A stretch of 64,000 nt of DNA from Streptomyces sp. SAI-127. GTDB lineage: Bacteria > Actinomycetota > Actinomycetes > Streptomycetales > Streptomycetaceae. Shown in pieces: positions 9,761 to 64,000 of this stretch. The stretch lies in assembly GCF_029894425.1 (NCBI RefSeq), contig NZ_JARXYJ010000001.1, forward strand, positions 7,770,501 to 7,834,500, given 5' to 3'. A program made the position numbers and the translations under genes. Numbering within the stretch: position 1 is the stretch's first letter; every line of letters starts with the position of its first letter. The notes under the pieces are model-generated. The model had not been told where the DNA came from. It searched no databases and worked only from the letters and a program-made list of their open reading frames with translations.

Positions 9761-11497
9761 ATGGCGGCGCAATTCGGCAGGAGGCTGCGCAAGGGAGCGG
9801 TGACCACCGCCGTGGCCGCAGCCGCGGTCGCGGCACTGTCGGCCTCCCAGGCTCCGGGGGTGACGGCCGACGACAACGGCAGATCCACCGCCGCCGACGC
9901 CCAGCCCACTCCCGACGCGACCGCCGGTGACAACGGCGCCACCGGCAACTCGCCGTACTACACGGACCTTCCGCCGCTGAACACCCCGAGCCCCGCGCCG
10001 ACCGACGGCACCTCGACCACCTCTCCGGTCGAGTCCGAGGCGGGCATACCGGCGACCGTCCTCGCCGCCTACAAGAAGGCCGCGGCCGAACTCCAGGAGT
10101 CCAAGCCCGGCTGCAACCTGCCCTGGCAGCTCCTCGCCGCCATCGGCCAGGTCGAGTCGGGCCAGGCCCGCGGCGGCCGGGTCGACGCGGAGGGCACCAC
10201 GACCTCCAAGATCCTCGGCCCCCAGCTCGACGGCAACGGCTTCGCGCTCATCAAGGACACCGACAACGGTGCCTACGACGGTGACAGCGCCTACGACTCG
10301 GCCGTCGGGCCCATGCAGTTCATCCCGTCCACCTGGGCGTGGGCCGGCCGCGACGGCAACGGCGACGGCGTGAAGGACCCGAACAACATCTACGACGCCT
10401 CCCTCGCCGCCGGGCACTACCTGTGCCGCAACGGCTGGGACCTGTCGACCCAGGGCGACCTGGACAGCGCGGTCCTCAGCTACAACCCCTCGCGGGACTA
10501 CCTCAACACGGTCCTGTCGTGGCTGGAGTACTTCCGCAAGGGCACCTACGAGATCCCGGACGGCACCGGCACGATCCCGGACAACCGCAGCGACGGCAGC
10601 AGCGGCAACAGCGGCAGCGGTGGCTCGAACTCCTCGCCGGCGTTGCCCTCGACGCCGCGCCCGCCGAAGCCGAGCACGCCCGGCTCGCCGAGCCCGACCC
10701 CGCCCTCGACCACCCCGCCGTCGTCGGGGACCCCCACCCCTCCGGCCCCGACGACCCCGGTCACGCCCACCCAGTCCGTGGACCACCTGGAGGACTCGGG
10801 CACCGCGAAGCTCACCGCCATGGCGGGCGACGCGTTCACCGAGCAGATCAGCACCAAGGCCGAGAACGCCGCCGGCAAGGGCGTCGCCAAGGTCCGGATC
10901 CGCTTCACGATCGTCGGCGACACCGACGCCGTCTTCACCGGCGGCGAGAAGGTCGCCACCGCTCTGACGAACAGCTCAGGCGTGGCCACCGCGCCCGCGC
11001 TCCAGGCGGGCGAGACCACCGGCGCCTTCACGGTCCGCGCCACTCTCATCGGCCGCACGGTCACCGGCCCGGACTACACGGCCACCGTCACCCAGCGCGT
11101 CGCCGACGCCCTCGTGCGCACCAGCGACACCGCGCTGACCTGCACACCGGGCGGCGAGTTCGCCGACGCGGTCCAGGTCAAGGCCACCTACAAGGACGCC
11201 GTCGCCGACAAGGTCGCGGCCACCGCCACCCTGATCAAGTCGGCCGACGACGCGACCGAGAACGACAAGGGCCCCTACTTCAAGGACGCCGACGGCAAGA
11301 CCGTCCGCACCCTGACGGGCCTCACCACGGACGCCGACGGCCTGCTGAAGCTGCCGCAGCTCTACTCCGACGACACCACCGGCACCTTCGTCCTCCGCAT
11401 CACCACCGCGGGCGGCGCGACGATCGACGTGACGCTGACCGTGGCGGCCGCTGAGACCTCCGCGAGCCCGTCGCCCAGCCCCAGCGCGAGTTCGTAA
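9761..11497 (+). CDS. Secreted lytic murein transglycosylase with Ig-like repeats
   Basis: A 578-residue exported cell-wall enzyme. Residues 1-35 form a signal peptide (RRLRKG then an Ala/Val-rich core). Residues about 95-270 form an Slt35/MltB-type lysozyme-like domain: 'LLAAIGQVESGQARGG' carries the catalytic Glu, followed by 'AVGPMQFIPSTWAWAGRDGN' and 'NNIYDASLAAGHYLCRNGWD'. It should cleave the glycan strand to 1,6-anhydro products. A Ser/Pro/Thr linker (about 275-345) then leads to two Big/Ig-like beta domains (about 345-560), probably for wall binding or spacing. ATG with AGGAGG about 10 bases upstream. Followed by a strong hairpin. Confidence 0.92.
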   Translation: MAAQFGRRLRKGAVTTAVAAAAVAALSASQAPGVTADDNGRSTAADAQPTPDATAGDNGATGNSPYYTDLPPLNTPSPAPTDGTSTTSPVESEAGIPATVLAAYKKAAAELQESKPGCNLPWQLLAAIGQVESGQARGGRVDAEGTTTSKILGPQLDGNGFALIKDTDNGAYDGDSAYDSAVGPMQFIPSTWAWAGRDGNGDGVKDPNNIYDASLAAGHYLCRNGWDLSTQGDLDSAVLSYNPSRDYLNTVLSWLEYFRKGTYEIPDGTGTIPDNRSDGSSGNSGSGGSNSSPALPSTPRPPKPSTPGSPSPTPPSTTPPSSGTPTPPAPTTPVTPTQSVDHLEDSGTAKLTAMAGDAFTEQISTKAENAAGKGVAKVRIRFTIVGDTDAVFTGGEKVATALTNSSGVATAPALQAGETTGAFTVRATLIGRTVTGPDYTATVTQRVADALVRTSDTALTCTPGGEFADAVQVKATYKDAVADKVAATATLIKSADDATENDKGPYFKDADGKTVRTLTGLTTDADGLLKLPQLYSDDTTGTFVLRITTAGGATIDVTLTVAAAETSASPSPSPSASS

Positions 11498-28629: not shown

Positions 28630-29079
28630 TCAGGGGAGCCAGACATACCGCACGTCCGGCTCCCGCTCCTCGTTGCCGCTGCCGTCGGTGCGCTCGGCCT
28701 CGACGAAGCCGTGACGTTCGTAGAAGCGGTGGGCCGGCTTGTTGACCTGGAAGGTCCACAGGCTCAGCCCCCGCGGACTGCGCTCCTTGGCGAGCGCGAC
28801 GAACCGGTCGCCGATGCCGCGCCCCCGCCAGTCGGGGTCGAGATAGAGCTGGGACAGCAGATCGCCGGCGAGGACCATGAGGCCCACGACCTGTTCCTCC
28901 GCCACAGCCACCCACGTCTCCCGCGACGGCACCACGACGTCCCGGATGTAGGCGTGCACCTCGTCGTCGGACCGGGGCCGTACGACCGTCGGCAACGCGG
29001 CGCCGAAGGACCGCAGATAGACGTCGGCCGTGGCGGAGGCGTCGGAGGTGGTGGCCCGGCGGATGACGACCGCGCTCAC
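28630..29079 (-). CDS. GNAT family N-acetyltransferase
   Basis: A 149-residue acetyltransferase. 'AVVIRRATTSDASATADVYL' opens the fold; 'LSQLYLDPDWRGRGIGDRFV' is motif A with the acetyl-CoA pyrophosphate loop RGRGIG; 'LSLWTFQVNKPAHRFYERHG' is motif B with the usual FYERHGF. The acceptor is unknown. The GTG at 29079 overlaps the ridA stop (GTGA), so the two genes are translationally coupled. Its 3' end lies 7 bases from the convergent racemase stop. Confidence 0.9.
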   Translation of the reverse strand: MSAVVIRRATTSDASATADVYLRSFGAALPTVVRPRSDDEVHAYIRDVVVPSRETWVAVAEEQVVGLMVLAGDLLSQLYLDPDWRGRGIGDRFVALAKERSPRGLSLWTFQVNKPAHRFYERHGFVEAERTDGSGNEEREPDVRYVWLP

Positions 29080-37749: not shown

Positions 37750-39693
37750 TCAGCCCGCCTCCTTGGCGGGCACCTTTACCGTGAACTGCTCGGCCTGGAG
37801 CGAGTACAGCTCCGCGTAGACACCACCGGAGGCCAGGAGCTCGTCGGGCGTGCCCGACTCCACGAGTCGGCCCTGCTCCAGGACGTGCACCAGGTCCGCG
37901 TGGCGCACGGACGCCAGCCGATGGGTGATCAGGATGACCGTCTGACCGGTGCCGGACAGCGCGCGGATCTTCTCGAAGACCTCCAGCTCGGCCCGGGCGT
38001 CCAGGGCGGCCGTCGGCTCGTCCACGATCAGGATGCGACCGCGCCGGTAGGCGGCCCGGGCGATCCCGAGCCGCTGCCACTGCCCGCCGGACAGCTCGTG
38101 CCCGCCGCTGAAGTTGCGGGCCAGCAGGGTGTCCAGGCCGCGCGGCAGATCGGCCAGCACCTCCCCGGCCCCGGCCTCGGCGACCGCGCCGGACACCCGC
38201 TCCTCGGTGAGCGGCACCGAGGAGCGGCCCACCGCCACATTGACGCGGGCGGTGAACGGCCACCGCTTGAAGTCCTGGGCGACCATCGCGACCCGCTCGG
38301 CGAGCAGCTGCCGGTCCGCGTGCGCCGCGTCCACGTCGTCCCACAGGATCCGGCCCCGGTCGGGGGCGTACAGCCCCGCGAGCAGCTTGACCAGGGTGGT
38401 CTTGCCGGAGCCGTTCTCCCCGACCAGCGCGACGATCTTGCCGAGCGGCAGGGTGAGTGTCACGTCGTCGAGCGCGGGGCGGGTCGCGTCACCCGGGTAG
38501 GTGAAGGAGACGTTCTCGAAGCGGATCTCGCGCGGCTCGTCCGGCAGCGCGGACCCGCCCTCCGGGATCGCCCGCTCGGCCGCCTCCGTGTGGAGCCGCT
38601 GGAGGTCGCCGACGAACAGGGCCTCCTCGTGCAGCGCGTTCATCTCGATGACCAGGGTGTTCAGGCTCTGCGAGCCGGTGCGCACGGCGATCACGGCCGT
38701 ACCCGCCACCGACAGCGCCATCGCGCCCGCCAGCAGCAGCCCGCCCAGTGTCGCGTACGTCGCCACCGTCGCCAGGCCCGTCCAGGCCGCCGCTATCAGC
38801 CCCGTCCGGGCCGCGAGCCTCGCCAGTCGGGCCTGCTCCGTCTCCGCCGTCTCCGCCATCGCGCGGTAGTGCCTGAGCAGGAACGGCCCCACCCCGTGGA
38901 CGCGGATCTCGGGCGCCGCCTCCGGCTCGATCAGCAGGGCACCGAGGAGGCGGCCCGCCCGCACGTGCTGCACCCAGGTGTGGAAGGACTCGTACTGGCG
39001 GCGCGCGATGGTCAGCGCGCCCCAGCCGCTCGGGATCGTCATCGTGACCAGCAGCGGCAGCAGCGCCGGGTGCAGCACGGTCAGCACGCCGGCGGCCGCG
39101 ATCAGCGAGATCATCGCGTTCACCACCCGCGTCGCGAAAGAGATCATCCGGCGGGCCGAGGTGGCGCCGTACTGCGCGGTGTCCAGCAGCTTGTGGAAGG
39201 CATGGTCCTCGATCGCGGCCAGCTCGACGGTGGCCGCCCGCTCCAGATACCGCTCGGTCGCCACCCGCTCCACCTTGGGCTCGAGGCGGCCGGTGGCATG
39301 CGTCGACGCGGCCCGCAGCAGCGCCCCGAGGAGCATCATGGCGGCCATGGTGGCCAACGCGGGCACGGCCCCCCGCAGCCGGTCCTCCAGCGCGCCCCCG
39401 CCGATCAGCCGCCCCAGCACACTGTTGACCGCGAGCAGACTCACCGCCTGCGCGAGACCCCGGGTCACCTCGGCGGCCAGCACGGTCCGCGCGGCCCGCC
39501 GGTCAGCCTGCCAGGCCAGCCGGAGACTCGCCGACAACAGCGACGGCAGCCGCGCCACCATGGCCCGGAACCCCAGCTCCAGAAACGCGTCGGAGTGGGA
39601 GTTCCAGCCCGTGTCGTACCTCAGCGGCCCTCCGAAGAGCAGCCGTTCCGACTCGGAGACTCCGGGCTGCTCAGTGCCACGCCGTTTCCCCAC
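37750..39693 (-). CDS. ABC exporter, fused permease and ATPase
   Basis: A 647-residue half-transporter. An N-terminal region of about 350 residues has five to six membrane helices (for example MMLLGALLRAAS, MISLIAAAGVLTVL). The C-terminal ATPase shows Walker A GENGSGKTTL, Q-loop MVAQDFKRWPF, signature HELSGGQWQRLGIARA, Walker B RILIVDEPTAALD and H-loop ILITHRLASVRHAD. Homodimer assembly is expected because no partner is adjacent. GTG at 39693 follows GGAGG by 6 bases. The exported substrate is unknown; lipid, peptide or drug are family options. Confidence 0.93.
   Translation of the reverse strand: MGKRRGTEQPGVSESERLLFGGPLRYDTGWNSHSDAFLELGFRAMVARLPSLLSASLRLAWQADRRAARTVLAAEVTRGLAQAVSLLAVNSVLGRLIGGGALEDRLRGAVPALATMAAMMLLGALLRAASTHATGRLEPKVERVATERYLERAATVELAAIEDHAFHKLLDTAQYGATSARRMISFATRVVNAMISLIAAAGVLTVLHPALLPLLVTMTIPSGWGALTIARRQYESFHTWVQHVRAGRLLGALLIEPEAAPEIRVHGVGPFLLRHYRAMAETAETEQARLARLAARTGLIAAAWTGLATVATYATLGGLLLAGAMALSVAGTAVIAVRTGSQSLNTLVIEMNALHEEALFVGDLQRLHTEAAERAIPEGGSALPDEPREIRFENVSFTYPGDATRPALDDVTLTLPLGKIVALVGENGSGKTTLVKLLAGLYAPDRGRILWDDVDAAHADRQLLAERVAMVAQDFKRWPFTARVNVAVGRSSVPLTEERVSGAVAEAGAGEVLADLPRGLDTLLARNFSGGHELSGGQWQRLGIARAAYRRGRILIVDEPTAALDARAELEVFEKIRALSGTGQTVILITHRLASVRHADLVHVLEQGRLVESGTPDELLASGGVYAELYSLQAEQFTVKVPAKEAG
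37753..37771. terminator. Short hairpin between convergent genes
   Basis: GCCCGCC/GGCGGGC with a TCCTT loop, located in the last codons of the ABC exporter gene and just after the stop of the 62-residue gene. Confidence 0.5.
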
Positions 39694-57890: not shown

Positions 57891-57951
57891 CCCACCGGCC
57901 CCTCCTCCGCCCCGGAACCCCTGATCGGGCCGCGTTGTCAGTGGGGAGTCG

Positions 57952-57957
57952 TACGGT
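57952..57957 (+). promoter_or_regulatory. Candidate -10 for uvrB
   Basis: TACGGT 7 bases before the uvrB ATG, with no ribosome site. No LexA/DinR box is evident. Confidence 0.5.
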
Positions 57958-57964
57958 GGACTCC

Positions 57965-60100
57965 ATGCGGCCCGTTTCCCACATCGAACGTACGGTGGCG
58001 CCCTTCGAGGTCGTCAGCTCCTACCAGCCCAGCGGCGATCAGCCGGCGGCCATCGCCGAGCTGGCCAAGCGCATCGAGGCAGGTGAGAAGGACGTCGTCC
58101 TGCTCGGCGCGACCGGCACCGGAAAGTCCGCCACCACGGCGTGGATGATCGAGAAGCTCCAGCGCCCCACCCTGGTGATGGCCCCGAACAAGACGCTGGC
58201 CGCCCAGCTGGCGAACGAATTCCGCGAGCTGCTGCCGAACAACGCCGTCGAGTACTTCGTCTCGTACTACGACTACTACCAGCCCGAGGCCTACGTCCCG
58301 CAGTCGGACACCTACATCGAGAAGGACTCCTCGATCAACGAGGAGGTGGAGCGCCTGCGCCACTCCGCGACCAACTCGCTGCTCACCCGCCGAGACGTCA
58401 TCGTGGTCGCCTCGGTCTCCTGCATCTACGGCCTCGGTACCCCGCAGGAGTACGTGGACCGCATGGTGGCGCTCAAGGTCGGCGAGGAGATCGACCGCGA
58501 CCAGCTGCTGCGCCGCTTCGTCGACATCCAGTACACGCGCAACGACCTGGCCTTCACCCGCGGCACCTTCCGGGTGCGCGGCGACACCATCGAGATCTTC
58601 CCGGTCTACGAGGAGCTCGCCGTCCGCATCGAGATGTTCGGCGACGAGATCGAGGCACTGTCCACGCTCCACCCGCTCACCGGCGAGATCATCAGCGACG
58701 ACGACCATCTGTACGTCTTCCCGGCCTCGCACTACGTCGCGGGACCCGAGCGCATGGAGCGGGCCGTCAATGACATCGAGAAGGAGCTCGGGGAGCGCCT
58801 GACCGAGCTGGAGAAGCAGGGCAAGCTCCTGGAGGCCCAGCGCCTGAGGATGCGCACGACGTACGACCTCGAGATGCTGCGCCAGATCGGCTCCTGCTCG
58901 GGCGTCGAGAACTACTCGATGCACTTCGACGGCCGCGCGCCCGGTTCCCCGCCGAACACCCTGATCGACTACTTCCCGGACGACTTCCTGCTCGTCATCG
59001 ACGAATCGCACGTGACCGTGCCCCAGATCGGCGCGATGTACGAGGGCGACGCCTCCCGCAAGCGCACCCTCGTCGACCACGGCTTCCGCCTCCCCTCGGC
59101 CCTGGACAACCGCCCCCTCAAGTGGGAGGAGTTCACGGAGCGCATCGGCCAGACCGTCTATCTGTCGGCGACGCCCGGCAAGTACGAGCTCTCGCGCGGG
59201 GACGGCGTCGTCGAGCAGATCATCCGCCCCACCGGCCTGATCGACCCCGAGGTCGTCGTCAAGCCGACCGAGGGCCAGATCGACGACCTGGTGCACGAGA
59301 TCCGCACCCGCACCGAGAAGGACGAGCGCGTCCTGGTCACCACGCTCACCAAGAAGATGGCCGAGGACCTCACCGACTACTTCCTGGAGCTCGGCATCCA
59401 GGTCCGCTATCTGCACAGCGACGTCGACACCCTGCGCCGCGTGGAGTTGCTGCGTGAGCTGCGCTCCGGCGAGTTCGACGTCCTCGTCGGCATCAACCTC
59501 CTGCGCGAGGGCCTCGACCTGCCAGAGGTGTCCCTGGTGGCCATCCTCGACGCCGACAAGGAGGGCTTCCTGCGCTCCGGCACCTCTCTGATCCAGACCA
59601 TCGGCCGCGCCGCGCGCAATGTCTCCGGCCAGGTCCACATGTACGCCGACAAGATCACCCCGGCGATGGAGAAGGCCATCGAGGAGACCAACCGGCGCCG
59701 GGAGAAGCAGGTCGCGTACAACACGGAGCGGGGCATCGACCCCCAGCCGCTGCGCAAGAAGATCAACGACATCGTCGCGCAGATCGCCCGCGAGGACATC
59801 GACACCGAGCAACTGCTCGGCTCCGGCTACCGCCAGGGCAAGGACGGCAAGGCAGCCAAGGCCCCCGTGCCCTCCCTCGGCAAGGCGGCGGCCGGCACCA
59901 AGGCCGCCAAGGGCAAGGCCAAGGAAACCGTCCCGACCGACCGCCCCGCGGCCGAACTCGCCGAGCAGATCGAGGAGATGACGGCACGCATGCGTGCCGC
60001 CGCCGCCGACCTCCAGTTCGAGATCGCGGCCCGCCTGCGCGACGAGGTCTCCGAGATGAAGAAGGAGCTCCGGCAGATGAAGGAGGCCGGCCTGGCCTGA
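57965..60100 (+). CDS. uvrB: UvrABC system protein B
   Basis: The damage-verifying helicase-like subunit of nucleotide excision repair, 711 residues. Walker A is [15 protein letters not shown] near residue 46. The beta-hairpin that clamps DNA is in '[20 protein letters not shown]'. Motif II is [15 protein letters not shown] and motif VI is [15 protein letters not shown]. The C-terminal UVR motif for UvrC/UvrA contact is '[20 protein letters not shown]'. A Lys/Ala-rich stretch of about 30 residues precedes it, as in other actinobacteria. The ATG is taken at [11 protein letters not shown], the conserved start. Confidence 0.97.
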
Positions 60101-60234: not shown

Positions 60235-60813
60235 GTGACCGTCAACATGACCAAGGGTCAGGCCATCAGTCTGCAGAAGAACGACGGAGGCAGCCTGACC
60301 GCGGTGCGCATGGGCCTCGGCTGGCAGGCGGCTCCCCGGCGCGGCCTGTTCGGCTCGCGCACGCGAGAGGTCGACCTCGACGCCTCCGCCGTCCTGTTCG
60401 CGGACAAGCAGCCCGTCGACGTCGTCTTCTTCCGTCACCTGGTGAGCGACGACGGCTCGGTCAAGCACACCGGTGACAACCTCGTCGGCGGCGTCGGCCA
60501 GGGCGGTGACGACGAGGCGATCCTCGTCGACCTGGCCCGCGTCCCCGTTCACATCGACCAGATCGTCTTCACCGTGAACTCCTTCACGGGCCAGACCTTC
60601 CAGGAGGTGCAGAACGCCTTCTGCCGACTGGTCGACGAGACCAACGGCGACGAGATGGCCCGCTACACGCTCGCCGGCGGCGGCGCCTACACCGCCCAGA
60701 TCATGGCGAAGGTGCACCGGACGGGCCCGGGCTGGACCATGACGGCCCTGGGCACCCCGGCCAACGGCCGCACCTTCCAGGACCTGATGCCGGCGATCCT
60801 GCCGCACCTGTAA
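60235..60813 (+). CDS. TerD family protein
   Basis: A 192-residue Ca2+-binding stress protein of the TerD family. 'LTAVRMGLGWQAAPRRGLFG' opens the first beta-sandwich, 'VDLDASAVLFADKQPVDVVF' and GDNLVGGVGQGGDDEAI form the acidic Ca2+ site, and 'FQEVQNAFCRLVDETNGDEM' is a family motif. In Streptomyces and other bacteria TerD paralogues are linked to tellurite and oxidative stress and to development. The GTG at 60235 follows GAGGGG by about 8 bases; a second start (ATG, four codons on) is possible. The TerD-fusion gene follows after 52 bases, so they probably form one transcript. Confidence 0.93.
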   Translation: MTVNMTKGQAISLQKNDGGSLTAVRMGLGWQAAPRRGLFGSRTREVDLDASAVLFADKQPVDVVFFRHLVSDDGSVKHTGDNLVGGVGQGGDDEAILVDLARVPVHIDQIVFTVNSFTGQTFQEVQNAFCRLVDETNGDEMARYTLAGGGAYTAQIMAKVHRTGPGWTMTALGTPANGRTFQDLMPAILPHL

Positions 60814-60865: not shown

Positions 60866-62965
60866 ATGACGGCCGAGCTGGTGCGGGGGCAGAACCACCC
60901 GCTCTCCCAGGCCCGCCTCGAGATCCGGATCGCGGCCGGTACGCCGATCGTGGCCGGAGCCACGCTCGGCGACGAGCACGGCACGGTGCACGGCGTCGAG
61001 TGGGTCGTCCACCCGGGTGCGCCCGCCCTGCCGGGTCTGGAGGTCTCCCGGCAGGCGGCCGCCGACCACCGCCTCGCGGTCGATCTCGGCGCCGTACCCG
61101 AGGCCGTGCACCGGGTCCATGTGCTGCTCGCCCTGCCCTCGGCGGGCGGACCCGTGCGCTTCGGCGCCGTCGCCGCCCCCTTCGTCGCGGTCACGGGCCT
61201 CGACGGCACCGAGCTCGCCAGCTACACCATCACCGGTCTGGACGCCGAGTCGGCGGTCGTCGCCCTGGAGCTCTACCGACGCCAGGGCGCCTGGAAGGTA
61301 CGCGCCGTCGGCCAGGGCTACGCGGGCGGTCTCACCGAACTCCTCACCGACCAGGGCCTTCCCCAGGCCCACCAGCTCGCGAACACCATCCATGAGGCGG
61401 TGGCCCAGGGGCTGGCCCGAGCCGTGACGCCCCCGGCCCGCACGGCGGACGGCGACCGCGCCCGGCAGACGGCCACGCCGGCACCGGGCCCGGAACACGG
61501 CTCTTCCGCGACGCAGGGCGCCTCCGCTGCCGTACCCCCGCAGCCGCTGTCGTCGTACGGCACACAGCCTCCGGGCACACCGCCGCAGCCGATGGCCCCG
61601 GACGGCGGCCCGGCCTCCGGCGCAGCGCAGCCCGCCTCTCCCTTCGGCGCGCAGGGCGCCCAGGCAACCGGCGGGCCGCAGCCCGGACACGCCCAGGCGC
61701 CCGCGGACGCGTCCGCCGCTCAGCCCCCCGCGCCCACCGTCGGCGGCCCGATCGATTACAGCCACCCCCGACGGCAGAACGCCGCCCCGCCCCCGCCTCC
61801 GCCCGCCGCGCCTCCCGTTCAGCCGGGACAGCCCGCCAGGCCCGTCGCCGGGGACGCGACCGGCTGGTCCATGGACGAGCGGCTCTACAACCAGGTGTGG
61901 GGCATGTTCGAGGACCTGGCCCGCTCCACGGCCGCGTACCGCAGCGCCGTCGACTTCGCCGACTCGCGCATGGAGAAGGAGCTCGACGCGGCCCTCGCCG
62001 ACCCGCGCAGCCGGATCGGCGGGCAGGGCGACGCCGCACGTGAGGCGGCCCGCACCAAGCACGCCCAGCTCGTCGAACAGGCTCGTGCGGCCTACGACCG
62101 GGATCTCGGCCAGCTCACGGCCGAGTCGGAGGTGGTCGAACCCGCCCTGCCCGCGGCGTACGCCCGCTGGGACAACCCCGTCTGGCACGGCTACCGGGTG
62201 CCGTTCGAAGCACCCATGGCCGTGCGCCTGGGCGATCTGCATCTGCCCGAGTGCGCCGAGCTGCGTATCCCGATGCTGATCCGGCTGCCGCTGGAGCGGG
62301 GCCTGTGGATCGACAGCGGAGCCGCCGGATCGCTCGACGGCTCGTTCTTCGACTCCCACGAACTGCACCGCCTCGCCATGGACACGGCCGTGGCGCTCGC
62401 GGCCCGGCTCCTCGCCGTCCACCCCGCCGGGGACTACACCCTGCACGTCATCGACCCGGCCGGCTCGGGGGCGCAGTCGCTCGCCCCGCTGGTGTGGACC
62501 GGCGTGCTCGCGGCCCCGCCCGCCGTCGGCGCCGGGGGCGTGGCGGACGTCCTGGCGCGCCTCACCGAGCGCGTCGACCTCGTGCAGATGGCGGTGCGCG
62601 GAGGCGCGGCCGACTCCCTCCCGCCCGGCCTCGACACCTCCGAGCAACTCCTGATCGTCAACGACTTCCCGCACGGCTTCGACGACCGGGCCGTGACCCA
62701 GCTGCGCTATCTCGCGGACGAGGGACCGTCCGTCGGCGTCCACCTGATGATGGTCGCGGACCGTGAGGAGGCCTCCGCCTACGGCCCGCTCCTCGACCCC
62801 CTGTGGCGCTCGCTCATGCGACTGACCCCGGTGCCCGACGACCATCTCGCCGACCCGTGGGTCGGGCATGCCTGGACCTACGAGCCCGCGCTCGTCCCGC
62901 CCGGCAGCCAGGTGGTCCAGCAGGTCCTGAACCAGGTCGCCAAGGCTCGTACCAAGTATACGTAA
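60866..62965 (+). CDS. TerD domain fused to a degenerate FtsK/HerA-like region
   Basis: A 699-residue multidomain protein. Residues about 1-185 form a TerD-like beta-sandwich ('VRGQNHPLSQARLEIRIAAG', 'FVAVTGLDGTELASYTITGL'). Residues about 190-335 are a Pro/Gln/Ala-rich flexible linker. Residues about 340-420 form a charged helical coil ('WSMDERLYNQVWGMFEDLAR'). The C-terminal 270 residues look like the core of an FtsK/SpoIIIE-HerA-type ATPase: LRIPMLIRLPLERGLWIDS, LHVIDPAGSGAQSLAPL, and LLIVNDFPHGFDDRAVTQLR at the Walker B position. No GxxGxGK[ST] P-loop is present, so ATP hydrolysis is unlikely. ATG with GGGGGAGAAGG upstream. Confidence 0.85.
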   Translation: MTAELVRGQNHPLSQARLEIRIAAGTPIVAGATLGDEHGTVHGVEWVVHPGAPALPGLEVSRQAAADHRLAVDLGAVPEAVHRVHVLLALPSAGGPVRFGAVAAPFVAVTGLDGTELASYTITGLDAESAVVALELYRRQGAWKVRAVGQGYAGGLTELLTDQGLPQAHQLANTIHEAVAQGLARAVTPPARTADGDRARQTATPAPGPEHGSSATQGASAAVPPQPLSSYGTQPPGTPPQPMAPDGGPASGAAQPASPFGAQGAQATGGPQPGHAQAPADASAAQPPAPTVGGPIDYSHPRRQNAAPPPPPPAAPPVQPGQPARPVAGDATGWSMDERLYNQVWGMFEDLARSTAAYRSAVDFADSRMEKELDAALADPRSRIGGQGDAAREAARTKHAQLVEQARAAYDRDLGQLTAESEVVEPALPAAYARWDNPVWHGYRVPFEAPMAVRLGDLHLPECAELRIPMLIRLPLERGLWIDSGAAGSLDGSFFDSHELHRLAMDTAVALAARLLAVHPAGDYTLHVIDPAGSGAQSLAPLVWTGVLAAPPAVGAGGVADVLARLTERVDLVQMAVRGGAADSLPPGLDTSEQLLIVNDFPHGFDDRAVTQLRYLADEGPSVGVHLMMVADREEASAYGPLLDPLWRSLMRLTPVPDDHLADPWVGHAWTYEPALVPPGSQVVQQVLNQVAKARTKYT

Positions 62966-63008
62966 AGGCCTTCTCACCAGGGATTTTGACCTTTCTTTTG
63001 CCAATCGC

Positions 63009-63037
63009 TTTACCTTTACTTGGTGATTGGGTACGGT
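63009..63037 (+). promoter_or_regulatory. Probable promoter of the riboswitch-terC transcript
   Basis: TTTACC (63009-63014), a 17-base spacer, then TACGGT (63032-63037). The start would fall near 63044, just ahead of the riboswitch. The DNA from 62975 to 63030 is conspicuously A/T-rich. Confidence 0.55.
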
Positions 63038-63046
63038 TGGTGGCAC

Positions 63047-63141
63047 GGAGGGGAGTACTCCCTGTCGACTGCGGCGTACCCGTCAATACGGATCAGGCCT
63101 GATCCCGGGGCGTCGGCCCACCGTGGGTGGAAGAGACCTCC
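63047..63141 (+). ncRNA. yybP-ykoY (manganese) riboswitch
   Basis: The 5' strand GGAGGGGAGTA (63047-63057) pairs through GGAGG with CCTCC of the 3' AAGAGACCTCC (63131-63141). Between them CCCGTCAATACGGATCAGG carries the second conserved loop, and GCCCACCGTGGGTGG forms a distal hairpin. GGGGAGUA, CGUCAAUxCG and AGACCUCC are the hallmark blocks of the Mn2+-sensing yybP-ykoY class. The element ends 50 bases before a TerC-family gene, its usual target, so high Mn2+ should raise expression. Confidence 0.87.
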
Positions 63142-63191
63142 GGCAGCGCGACGACGCTGGTTACTTGCCGTTACGTATTGCCGGAGGAACT

Positions 63192-64000
63192 GTGGATGTT
63201 TCCGTGACCCTGTGGGTCCTGACGATCGTGGGCCTCGCCGCCCTCATCGCGGTCGACTTCTTCATCGGCCGCAAGCCGCACGACGTGTCCATCAAGGAAG
63301 CGGGCATCTGGACGGTTGTCTGGATCGCCCTGGCCGGCCTCTTCGGGCTCGGTCTGTTCGTCTTCGGCGGCGGCCAGGCCGGCGGAGAGTTCTTCGCGGG
63401 CTTCATCACCGAGAAGTCCCTGAGCGTGGACAACCTCTTCGTCTTCGTCCTGATCATGGCGAAGTTCGCGGTGCCCTCGCAGTACCAGCAGCGGGTGCTT
63501 CTCGTCGGTGTCCTCATAGCCCTGGTGCTGCGCGCGATCTTCATCGCCGCCGGCGCCGCGATCATCGCCAGCTTCGCCTGGGTGTTCTACATCTTCGGCG
63601 CCTTCCTCATCTGGACCGCCTGGAAGCTCATCCAGGAGGCCCGGGCGGACGAGGAGGAAGAGGAGTTCGAGGAGAACAAGCTGCTCAAGGCCGCCGAGCG
63701 CAGGTTCGGCGTGGCCGACCGCTACCACGGCACCAAGCTGTGGATCGTGGAGAACGGCAAGCGGGTCATGACCCCGATGCTCGTCGTGATGCTCGCCATC
63801 GGCTCCACCGATGTGCTCTTCGCGCTCGACTCGATCCCCGCGATCTTCGGCCTGACCCAGGACCCGTACATCGTCTTCACGGCCAACGCGTTCGCCCTGA
63901 TGGGCCTGCGCCAGCTGTACTTCCTCATCGGCGGCCTGCTGCGGAAGCTGGTCCACCTGAGCTACGGCCTGTCGATCATCCTGGGCTTCATCGGCGTCAA
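63192..64000 (+). CDS. TerC family membrane protein (3' end beyond window)
   Basis: Integral membrane protein of the TerC/Alx family; 269 codons are visible. The start GTG at 63192 has GGAGG 4 bases upstream and reads VDVSVTLWVLTIVGLAALIA. The ion-binding family motifs are present: ITEKSLSVDNLFVFVLIM in helix three and 'MLAIGSTDVLFALDSIPAIF' in a later helix, both with paired Asp/Asn. A charged cytoplasmic loop (ARADEEEEEFEENKLLKAAE) separates the two halves. Relatives such as Alx, MeeY and YkoY export Mn2+ or load it onto secreted enzymes, which fits the riboswitch upstream. The first two genes of the group encode TerD-type proteins. Confidence 0.93.
   Translation, partial: MDVSVTLWVLTIVGLAALIAVDFFIGRKPHDVSIKEAGIWTVVWIALAGLFGLGLFVFGGGQAGGEFFAGFITEKSLSVDNLFVFVLIMAKFAVPSQYQQRVLLVGVLIALVLRAIFIAAGAAIIASFAWVFYIFGAFLIWTAWKLIQEARADEEEEEFEENKLLKAAERRFGVADRYHGTKLWIVENGKRVMTPMLVVMLAIGSTDVLFALDSIPAIFGLTQDPYIVFTANAFALMGLRQLYFLIGGLLRKLVHLSYGLSIILGFIGV

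Follow-up and report, generated by a model that had tools for sequence, protein, structure and literature searches.

The yybP-ykoY class of riboswitches, its manganese ligand and its link to genes for TerC/Alx proteins are well established. The E. coli gene alx responds to alkaline pH, and MntP belongs to an exporter family other than GDT1. Both alx and mntP have been described as manganese-responsive members of the class (PMC9603457). The metal-sensing loop, L3, has been described in two forms, UCAAUUC in L. lactis and ACAUACU in X. oryzae, and in both an invariant A contacts Mn2+ through N7 (PMC6754395). In the view published there, Mn2+ stabilizes helix P1.1 (PMC6754395). The junction, which brings the two legs of the aptamer together, is four-way in crystals; in the mgtA element of a Streptococcus it has been described as three-way (PMC9495176). 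In C. glutamicum, an RF00080 leader is listed for cg2157 (terC), and the 5′ UTR of this gene was seen by RNAseq (PMC3890552). No title in a partial literature search announced a manganese riboswitch before terC of Streptomyces; an annotation in print or in RegPrecise may exist.

We analyzed a 64,000-nt stretch of the genome of Streptomyces sp. SAI-127, here called the window. Near its end, a gene on the plus strand starts with GTG and runs off the window (63192-64000). The initial annotation had placed it in the TerC family, and this was confirmed by Pfam PF03741 (E = 9e-51) and by NCBIfam TIGR03718, 'R_switched_Alx' (353.9 bits against a cut-off of 246.4). Sequence comparison indicates that the leader of this gene is very probably a manganese riboswitch of the yybP-ykoY class that turns ON translation of the TerC/Alx metal-export protein. 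The predicted element adds a member to an already known class. The same class had been named in the initial annotation, and the assignment is supported by separate covariance models, covariation, the identity of the loop, linkage to TerC and a second copy before a GDT1 gene.

The predicted aptamer covers 63045-63142 on the plus strand. All the sequence blocks proposed earlier were found, as was the proposed GGAGG/CCTCC closing stem, which corresponds to P1.1: CGGAGG (63046-63051) pairs with CCTCCG (63137-63142). GGAGUA (63052-63057) forms the 5′ strand of L1. As is typical of the class, an L1 5′ strand, GGGGAGUA, lies between P1.1 and P1.2 (63050-63057); the block GGGGAGTA at these positions comprises the end of P1.1 and L1 and was found at the 5′ end of 81 of 82 aligned sequences. 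P1.2 is formed by CUCC (63058-63061) and GGAA (63129-63132), and P3 by 63072-63082 and 63106-63115. L3, UCAAUAC (DNA TCAATAC, 63083-63089), is enclosed by the block CGTCAATACGG (63081-63091). The hairpin P3.1 (GGAUC ... GAUCC, 63090-63105) lies past L3, and the hairpin P4 (GCCC ... GGGU) occupies 63116-63128. On the return side are the block AAGAGACCTCC (63131-63141) and another class feature, GAGACC (63133-63138), made up of the 3′ strand of L1 (GAGA, 63133-63136, from block comparison across loci) and the return of P1.1; GAGAC was found at the 3′ end of 76 of the 82 aligned sequences. L3 has the seven bases and the invariant A at position 3 that are expected of the class, and A63085 is the predicted counterpart of the Mn2+-coordinating A41 of L. 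lactis.

The structure drawn on the alignment of the genus comprises P1.1, L1, P1.2, P3 (interrupted by one bulge), L3, which bulges out on one side only, P3.1, and a P4 whose length varies. A P2 helix was absent in the aligned genus loci, where a linker of variable length was found instead, and the junction shows three helices. The outermost P1.2 pair is C.A in the window and in 27 of 30 genus loci, and C-G in the other 3; it is C-G or U-A in most of the aligned sequences from outside the genus. The folding energy of the whole leader was not unusual (z = -0.91) and was dismissed as uninformative.

Among the described systems, E. coli alx shares the block order GGGGAGUA / CGUCANUACG / GAGACC, an L3 of the L. 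lactis type (UCAUUAC) and a TerC-family gene, whose product is 37.7% identical to TerC of the window. It differs in the sequences of P1.1 and P1.2, in a longer P4 region, in its expression platform and in being richer in A and U. The yoaB element of L. lactis (PDB 4Y1I) has an L3, UCAAUUC, close to UCAAUAC of the window, with the same invariant A (PMC6754395). Its junction is four-way and it controls a transcription terminator (PMC9190785), whereas the leader in the window has three helices and a predicted ribosome-site switch. The leader of C. glutamicum cg2157 is alike in being a yybP-ykoY leader of an actinobacterial terC gene; it was an Rfam prediction at 49.13 bits at the time (PMC3890552), whereas the copy of RF00080 used here did not match the leader in the window.

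The initial annotation had expected a high-scoring match in a covariance-model search with RF00080 (Manganese). This was not obtained: a copy of the model from release 15 gave no match at the gathering score in the window, and none in 62950-63250 even at E values up to 10. Of 30 related loci, 20 were scanned with the same model, and none gave a match at E values up to 1. By the condition set in the initial annotation, such an outcome alone would refute the class. The negative result carries little weight, however, because the positive control, the E. coli alx leader (401 bases), was also missed at E up to 1 and the mntP control scored 41.6 bits, below the cut-off of 45. The same failure on these controls ruled out the argument that a leader without an RF00080 match is not a manganese riboswitch. 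The gathering score is a detection rule, not a biological one. The consensus of the model shares the L1 block GGGGAGUAG with the leader in the window and differs from it in having a loop of the X. oryzae type, GUCAACAUACU, and an unpaired P1; the TerC-linked leaders scanned were unmatched. Among 296 genomes of the same taxonomic class, scored with stricter filters meant for large searches, none had an RF00080 match at the cut-off and 21 had one at E ≤ 0.1. It was not wholly blind, since a model built from the genus (R1, below) finds the aptamer in 8 of the 10 best of its loci from these 21 genomes; those inspected of the weakly matched loci carry the X. oryzae loop type.

We built two other covariance models: R1 from 30 sequences of the genus alone, and R2 from 76 actinobacterial sequences without members of the genus, which were aligned by R1, so that the two models are not wholly independent. 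In the window, the R2 match at 63045-63142 scored 77.0 bits (E = 2.2e-18); E. coli alx was recovered too, at 51.4 bits (E = 1.9e-11). R1 found alx as well, at E = 3.3e-6, and L1, L3 and GAGACC lined up with their counterparts in this match. Neither model matched the mntP element. Among the 296 genomes, R1 had matches at E ≤ 0.1 in 157, including 26 of the 28 of the genus, and R2 at E ≤ 0.01 in 204, including all 28 of the genus; the counts for RF00080 and R2 (21 at E ≤ 0.1 against 204 at E ≤ 0.01) were obtained at different thresholds. At its cut-off, RF00080 as used here reports nothing for the terC leaders of Streptomyces and of many other Actinomycetia, and the new model detects them. In most of the Streptomyces genomes that we examined, and in numerous further Actinomycetia, terC is probably preceded by a manganese switch. 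Elsewhere in the window, a minus-strand R2 match at 28911-28993 (E = 0.03) lacked the core blocks and was taken as chance, as were weak matches at 57895-57971 on the minus strand (E = 0.18) and at 10938-11021 on the plus strand (E = 3.4).

For covariation we used an alignment, A3, of 82 matches: 71 from 69 loci outside the genus, hand-picked from the listed R1 matches to spread over genera, 10 genus members and alx. A TerC gene lies downstream on the same strand in 72 of the 82 by tblastn, among them alx and all ten members from the genus. The remaining ten comprise one with GDT1 (L119), one with a PGPGW protein (L102) and others with no nameable family. In A3, 95.6% of the cells pair, against 75.7% after shuffling and 38-56% after sliding, in an alignment that was fitted to the structure and leans towards it; related sequences may beat shuffles without any structure. 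Changes on both sides were found in 22 of 29 pairs, in support of the helices P1.1, P1.2, P3, P3.1 and P4. These include all four pairs of P1.2, 8 of the 10 of P3 and 4 of the 5 of P3.1; in P4, 99.7% of the cells are paired and the length varies across relatives. There were 436 cells with both-sided changes against 137 in the control, and the covariation score was 0.568 against 0.213. The covariation of P1.1 and P1.2 is less prone to the effect of fitting, because these helices adjoin conserved blocks and leave little freedom to the alignment. For example, in P1.2 the pair of columns 16-203 is C-G in 36 sequences and U-A in 30, columns 17-202 are U-A in 55 and C-G in 25, and columns 18-201 are C-G in 62 and U-A in 20. 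Most pairs are invariant within the genus, which by itself says little on covariation.

The DNA of the leader was matched in 38 of 61 genomes searched and in 35 of 37 of the genus, its own genome counted. Loci were fetched from 30 of the 38 matched genomes, and all keep the blocks in the same order; the eight other matched genomes are five of the genus and three of other families (E near 1e-3). We also compared 80 TerC loci, whose TerC shows 81-97% identity over the best segment. The leader is detected by R1 in 72 of them and by a strict block pattern in 60. These comparisons indicate that the leader is real, conserved and structured.

The eight TerC loci without the leader were read by eye. 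Two Streptomyces loci, L179 and L218, are missing the whole element and have kept the promoter-like stretch and the ribosome site, and L191 (S. noursei) has kept only the ends of the element; all three look like natural deletions. In L184, L205, L212, L223 and L224 the upstream sequence is unrelated. L223 is the second terC of S. turgidiscabies, whose other terC locus, L180, has the leader. These natural losses give material for comparison.

Two R2 matches per genome were found in 16 of the 28 genus genomes, and the second match was inspected in the genome of the window. This second predicted aptamer (G000:C1:7279028-7279129, L230 1501-1602; R2 E = 2.6e-8) carries the blocks GGGGAGUAGC, UCGACAUACUG and GAGACC and a loop of the X. 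oryzae type; it was missed by RF00080. The gene behind it encodes 193 residues of the GDT1 family of divalent cation/proton antiporters (PF01169, E = 2.8e-37). The two loop forms were then compared with the downstream genes in 128 distinct aptamers of alignments A3, A4 and A5, which were picked from R1 and R2 matches and are not a random sample. Behind the L. lactis form were TerC in 88, GDT1 in 0 and neither gene in 12. The X. oryzae form was followed by GDT1 in 26 (23 by script and 3 by eye), TerC in 0 and neither in 2. Fisher's test on the script counts, which ignores relatedness, gave p = 2.7e-24. In E. coli, the L. lactis form stands before the TerC-family gene alx and the X. oryzae form before mntP. 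Both units were present in 9 of 88 sources (87 genomes and E. coli) among the fetched loci, and the genome of the window is a further case. We suggest, only tentatively, that the manganese riboswitches of Actinomycetia fall into two subtypes that parted long ago and sometimes occur together in a single genome. Their loops might be set to different signals or Mn2+ levels; different Mn2+ thresholds behind the loop-to-gene rule could make metal export staged. In the partial literature search we found no statement of this partition or of the sensitivity gap of RF00080 for TerC-linked actinobacterial leaders.

The distance of about 50 bases between riboswitch and start codon was also as proposed, with 49 bases from the end of the aptamer at 63142 to the GTG at 63192-63194. 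The initial annotation had suggested that the ribosome site GGAGG in this interval could pair with the CTCCG segment at the end of the riboswitch. The sequences agree with this guess: CCTCCGGCA (63137-63145, plus strand) is complementary to TGCCGGAGG (63179-63187, plus strand), which contains the ribosome site (63183-63187). Two mutually exclusive helices, P1.1 and the ribosome-site helix, thus have 63137-63145 in common. In this simple switch layout, one strand would serve both the closing helix of the aptamer and the hairpin of the ribosome site. Within the genus, CCTCCGG of the former strand and GCCGGAGG of the latter are invariant in 30 of 30 loci. Outside it the sequences differ; for example, the switch strands CCTCGAAC (L077), CCTCAGAC (L102) and CCTCCGACC (L071) are matched before the start codon by GTTCGAGG, GTCTGAGG and GGTCGGAGG, respectively. 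We counted the longest helix between the switch strand and the roughly 110 bases behind it, anywhere in that stretch and not limited to the ribosome site. Of the 82 loci, 61 have a helix of at least 7 bp with the 3′ strand of P1.1 and 42 have one of at least 8 bp; among permuted pairs the shares are 36% and 19%. The first of these control values is high owing to the CCTCCGG/CCGGAGG that related sequences have in common. The other 21 loci, including L067 and L080, fall short of a 7-bp helix.

In the folding model, the ribosome site of the free leader was unpaired with a probability of 0.002, the strand TGCCGGAGG was paired with a probability of 0.96-1.0, and the probability of P1.1 was 0.0. When P1.1 was forced, the ribosome site was unpaired at 0.248, at a cost of about 12 kcal/mol; forcing the whole aptamer cost about 15 kcal/mol, in energies that omit the metal-bound L1-L3 contact. 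A simple switch at equilibrium could not bridge a gap of this size, and with P1.1 forced the ribosome site was still only a quarter unpaired. For the palindrome GGGAGTACTCCC (63051-63062), the model gives a probability of 0.69-0.78 of forming a hairpin in the free leader. A conserved role of this hairpin as a trap for L1 was rejected, as outside the genus the P1.2 strand often differs (AUCCC, ACUUC, AUUCC). No terminator-like hairpin was found in 62900-63250, and a translational ON switch is therefore the simplest reading.

In the proposed mechanism, the two legs would be undocked and P1.1 weak at low Mn2+, so that CCTCCGGCA would pair with TGCCGGAGG and the ribosome site would be buried. At high Mn2+, the L1-L3 site would bind the metal, CCTCCG would be held in P1.1, and GGAGG would be exposed; TerC would then be made and would remove or otherwise handle the excess metal. 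Such a platform is consistent with the published stabilization of P1.1 by Mn2+ (PMC6754395). The decision would probably be made during transcription: once the leader is complete, the predicted advantage of the sequestered fold over the metal-free aptamer fold is about 12-15 kcal/mol.

The large gap between the two states at equilibrium could also mean that the platform works by another route, for example by Rho-dependent termination or RNA decay of the unbound leader, with pairing of the ribosome site being secondary. Such routes need no hairpin terminator, and none was found. We consider this unlikely, given that the complement conserved in the genus matches the ribosome site exactly and that several other families keep the pairing with a different sequence. 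The signal, rather than the platform, might be different: the fold would be the same, and the main signal for the L. lactis-type loop before TerC would be alkaline pH or a different ion, Mn2+ being a secondary ligand. Among the fetched aptamers, the TerC-linked and GDT1-linked ones differ in loop type, so their signals could differ, and a link to pH is suggested by the response of alx and by the title of PMC9603457, 'An Intrinsic Alkalization Circuit Turns on mntP Riboswitch'. Cd2+ is also present in an L. lactis structure (PMC6754395). The L. lactis loop is, however, itself a type seen in Mn2+-bound crystals (PMC6754395), and the sensing A is kept in the window, which makes a different main signal improbable.

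A leader that only resembles the class, and is conserved because it binds a protein or has a function as DNA, would agree with the lack of an RF00080 match. Such a leader is hard to reconcile with the detection of alx by both R1 and R2, with the strong covariation of base pairs, and with L179 and L218, which by eye lost the whole element and kept the promoter-like stretch and the ribosome site. We regard this explanation as very remote, and a manganese riboswitch acting on translation as the preferred reading.

The A/T-rich promoter of the initial annotation held in part. Upstream of the leader, TTTACC (63009-63014) and TACGGT (63032-63037), separated by a spacer of 17 nt, form a likely plus-strand promoter (63009-63037) in a stretch that is, by eye, largely conserved in the 30 genus loci, but a scan with the sigma-70 consensus found no promoter site there. 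Transcription from it would start near 63042-63046, at the base of P1.1. The stretch 62990-63037, which surrounds the likely -35 region, carries repeats of CTTTTGCC / CTTTACC / CTTGGT that are largely conserved in the genus and could be a protein-binding site besides the riboswitch. As the operator of a regulon, the CTTTACC repeats were rejected: the sole other CTTTACC in the window, at 37774, lacks the rest of the pattern. Two adjacent ORFs on the same strand, 60235-60813 and 60866-62965, lie directly upstream of the terC leader. The second encodes a TerD domain, which places the leader in a ter-type neighbourhood.

Several other arrangements were seen among the fetched loci. In L067 (412-507), L068 (1849-1942) and L079 (462-558), all of one genus (g71), the gene behind the aptamer encodes a protein of about 280-290 residues and may be a new target of regulation by Mn2+; the proteins from two of the three genomes (L067 and L079) were checked and gave no Pfam match. 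The aptamer of L102 (406-511) precedes the gene for its PGPGW transmembrane protein (PF09656). Divergent pairs of aptamers were found in L077 (1967-2064, minus; 2170-2314, plus) and in L124 (475-574, plus; 228-337, minus). In each pair one aptamer lies before TerC and the weaker one (40.1 and 35.3 bits) before a short hydrophobic reading frame whose first residues are MSISVLLEILAG / MSANLIIEILLG.
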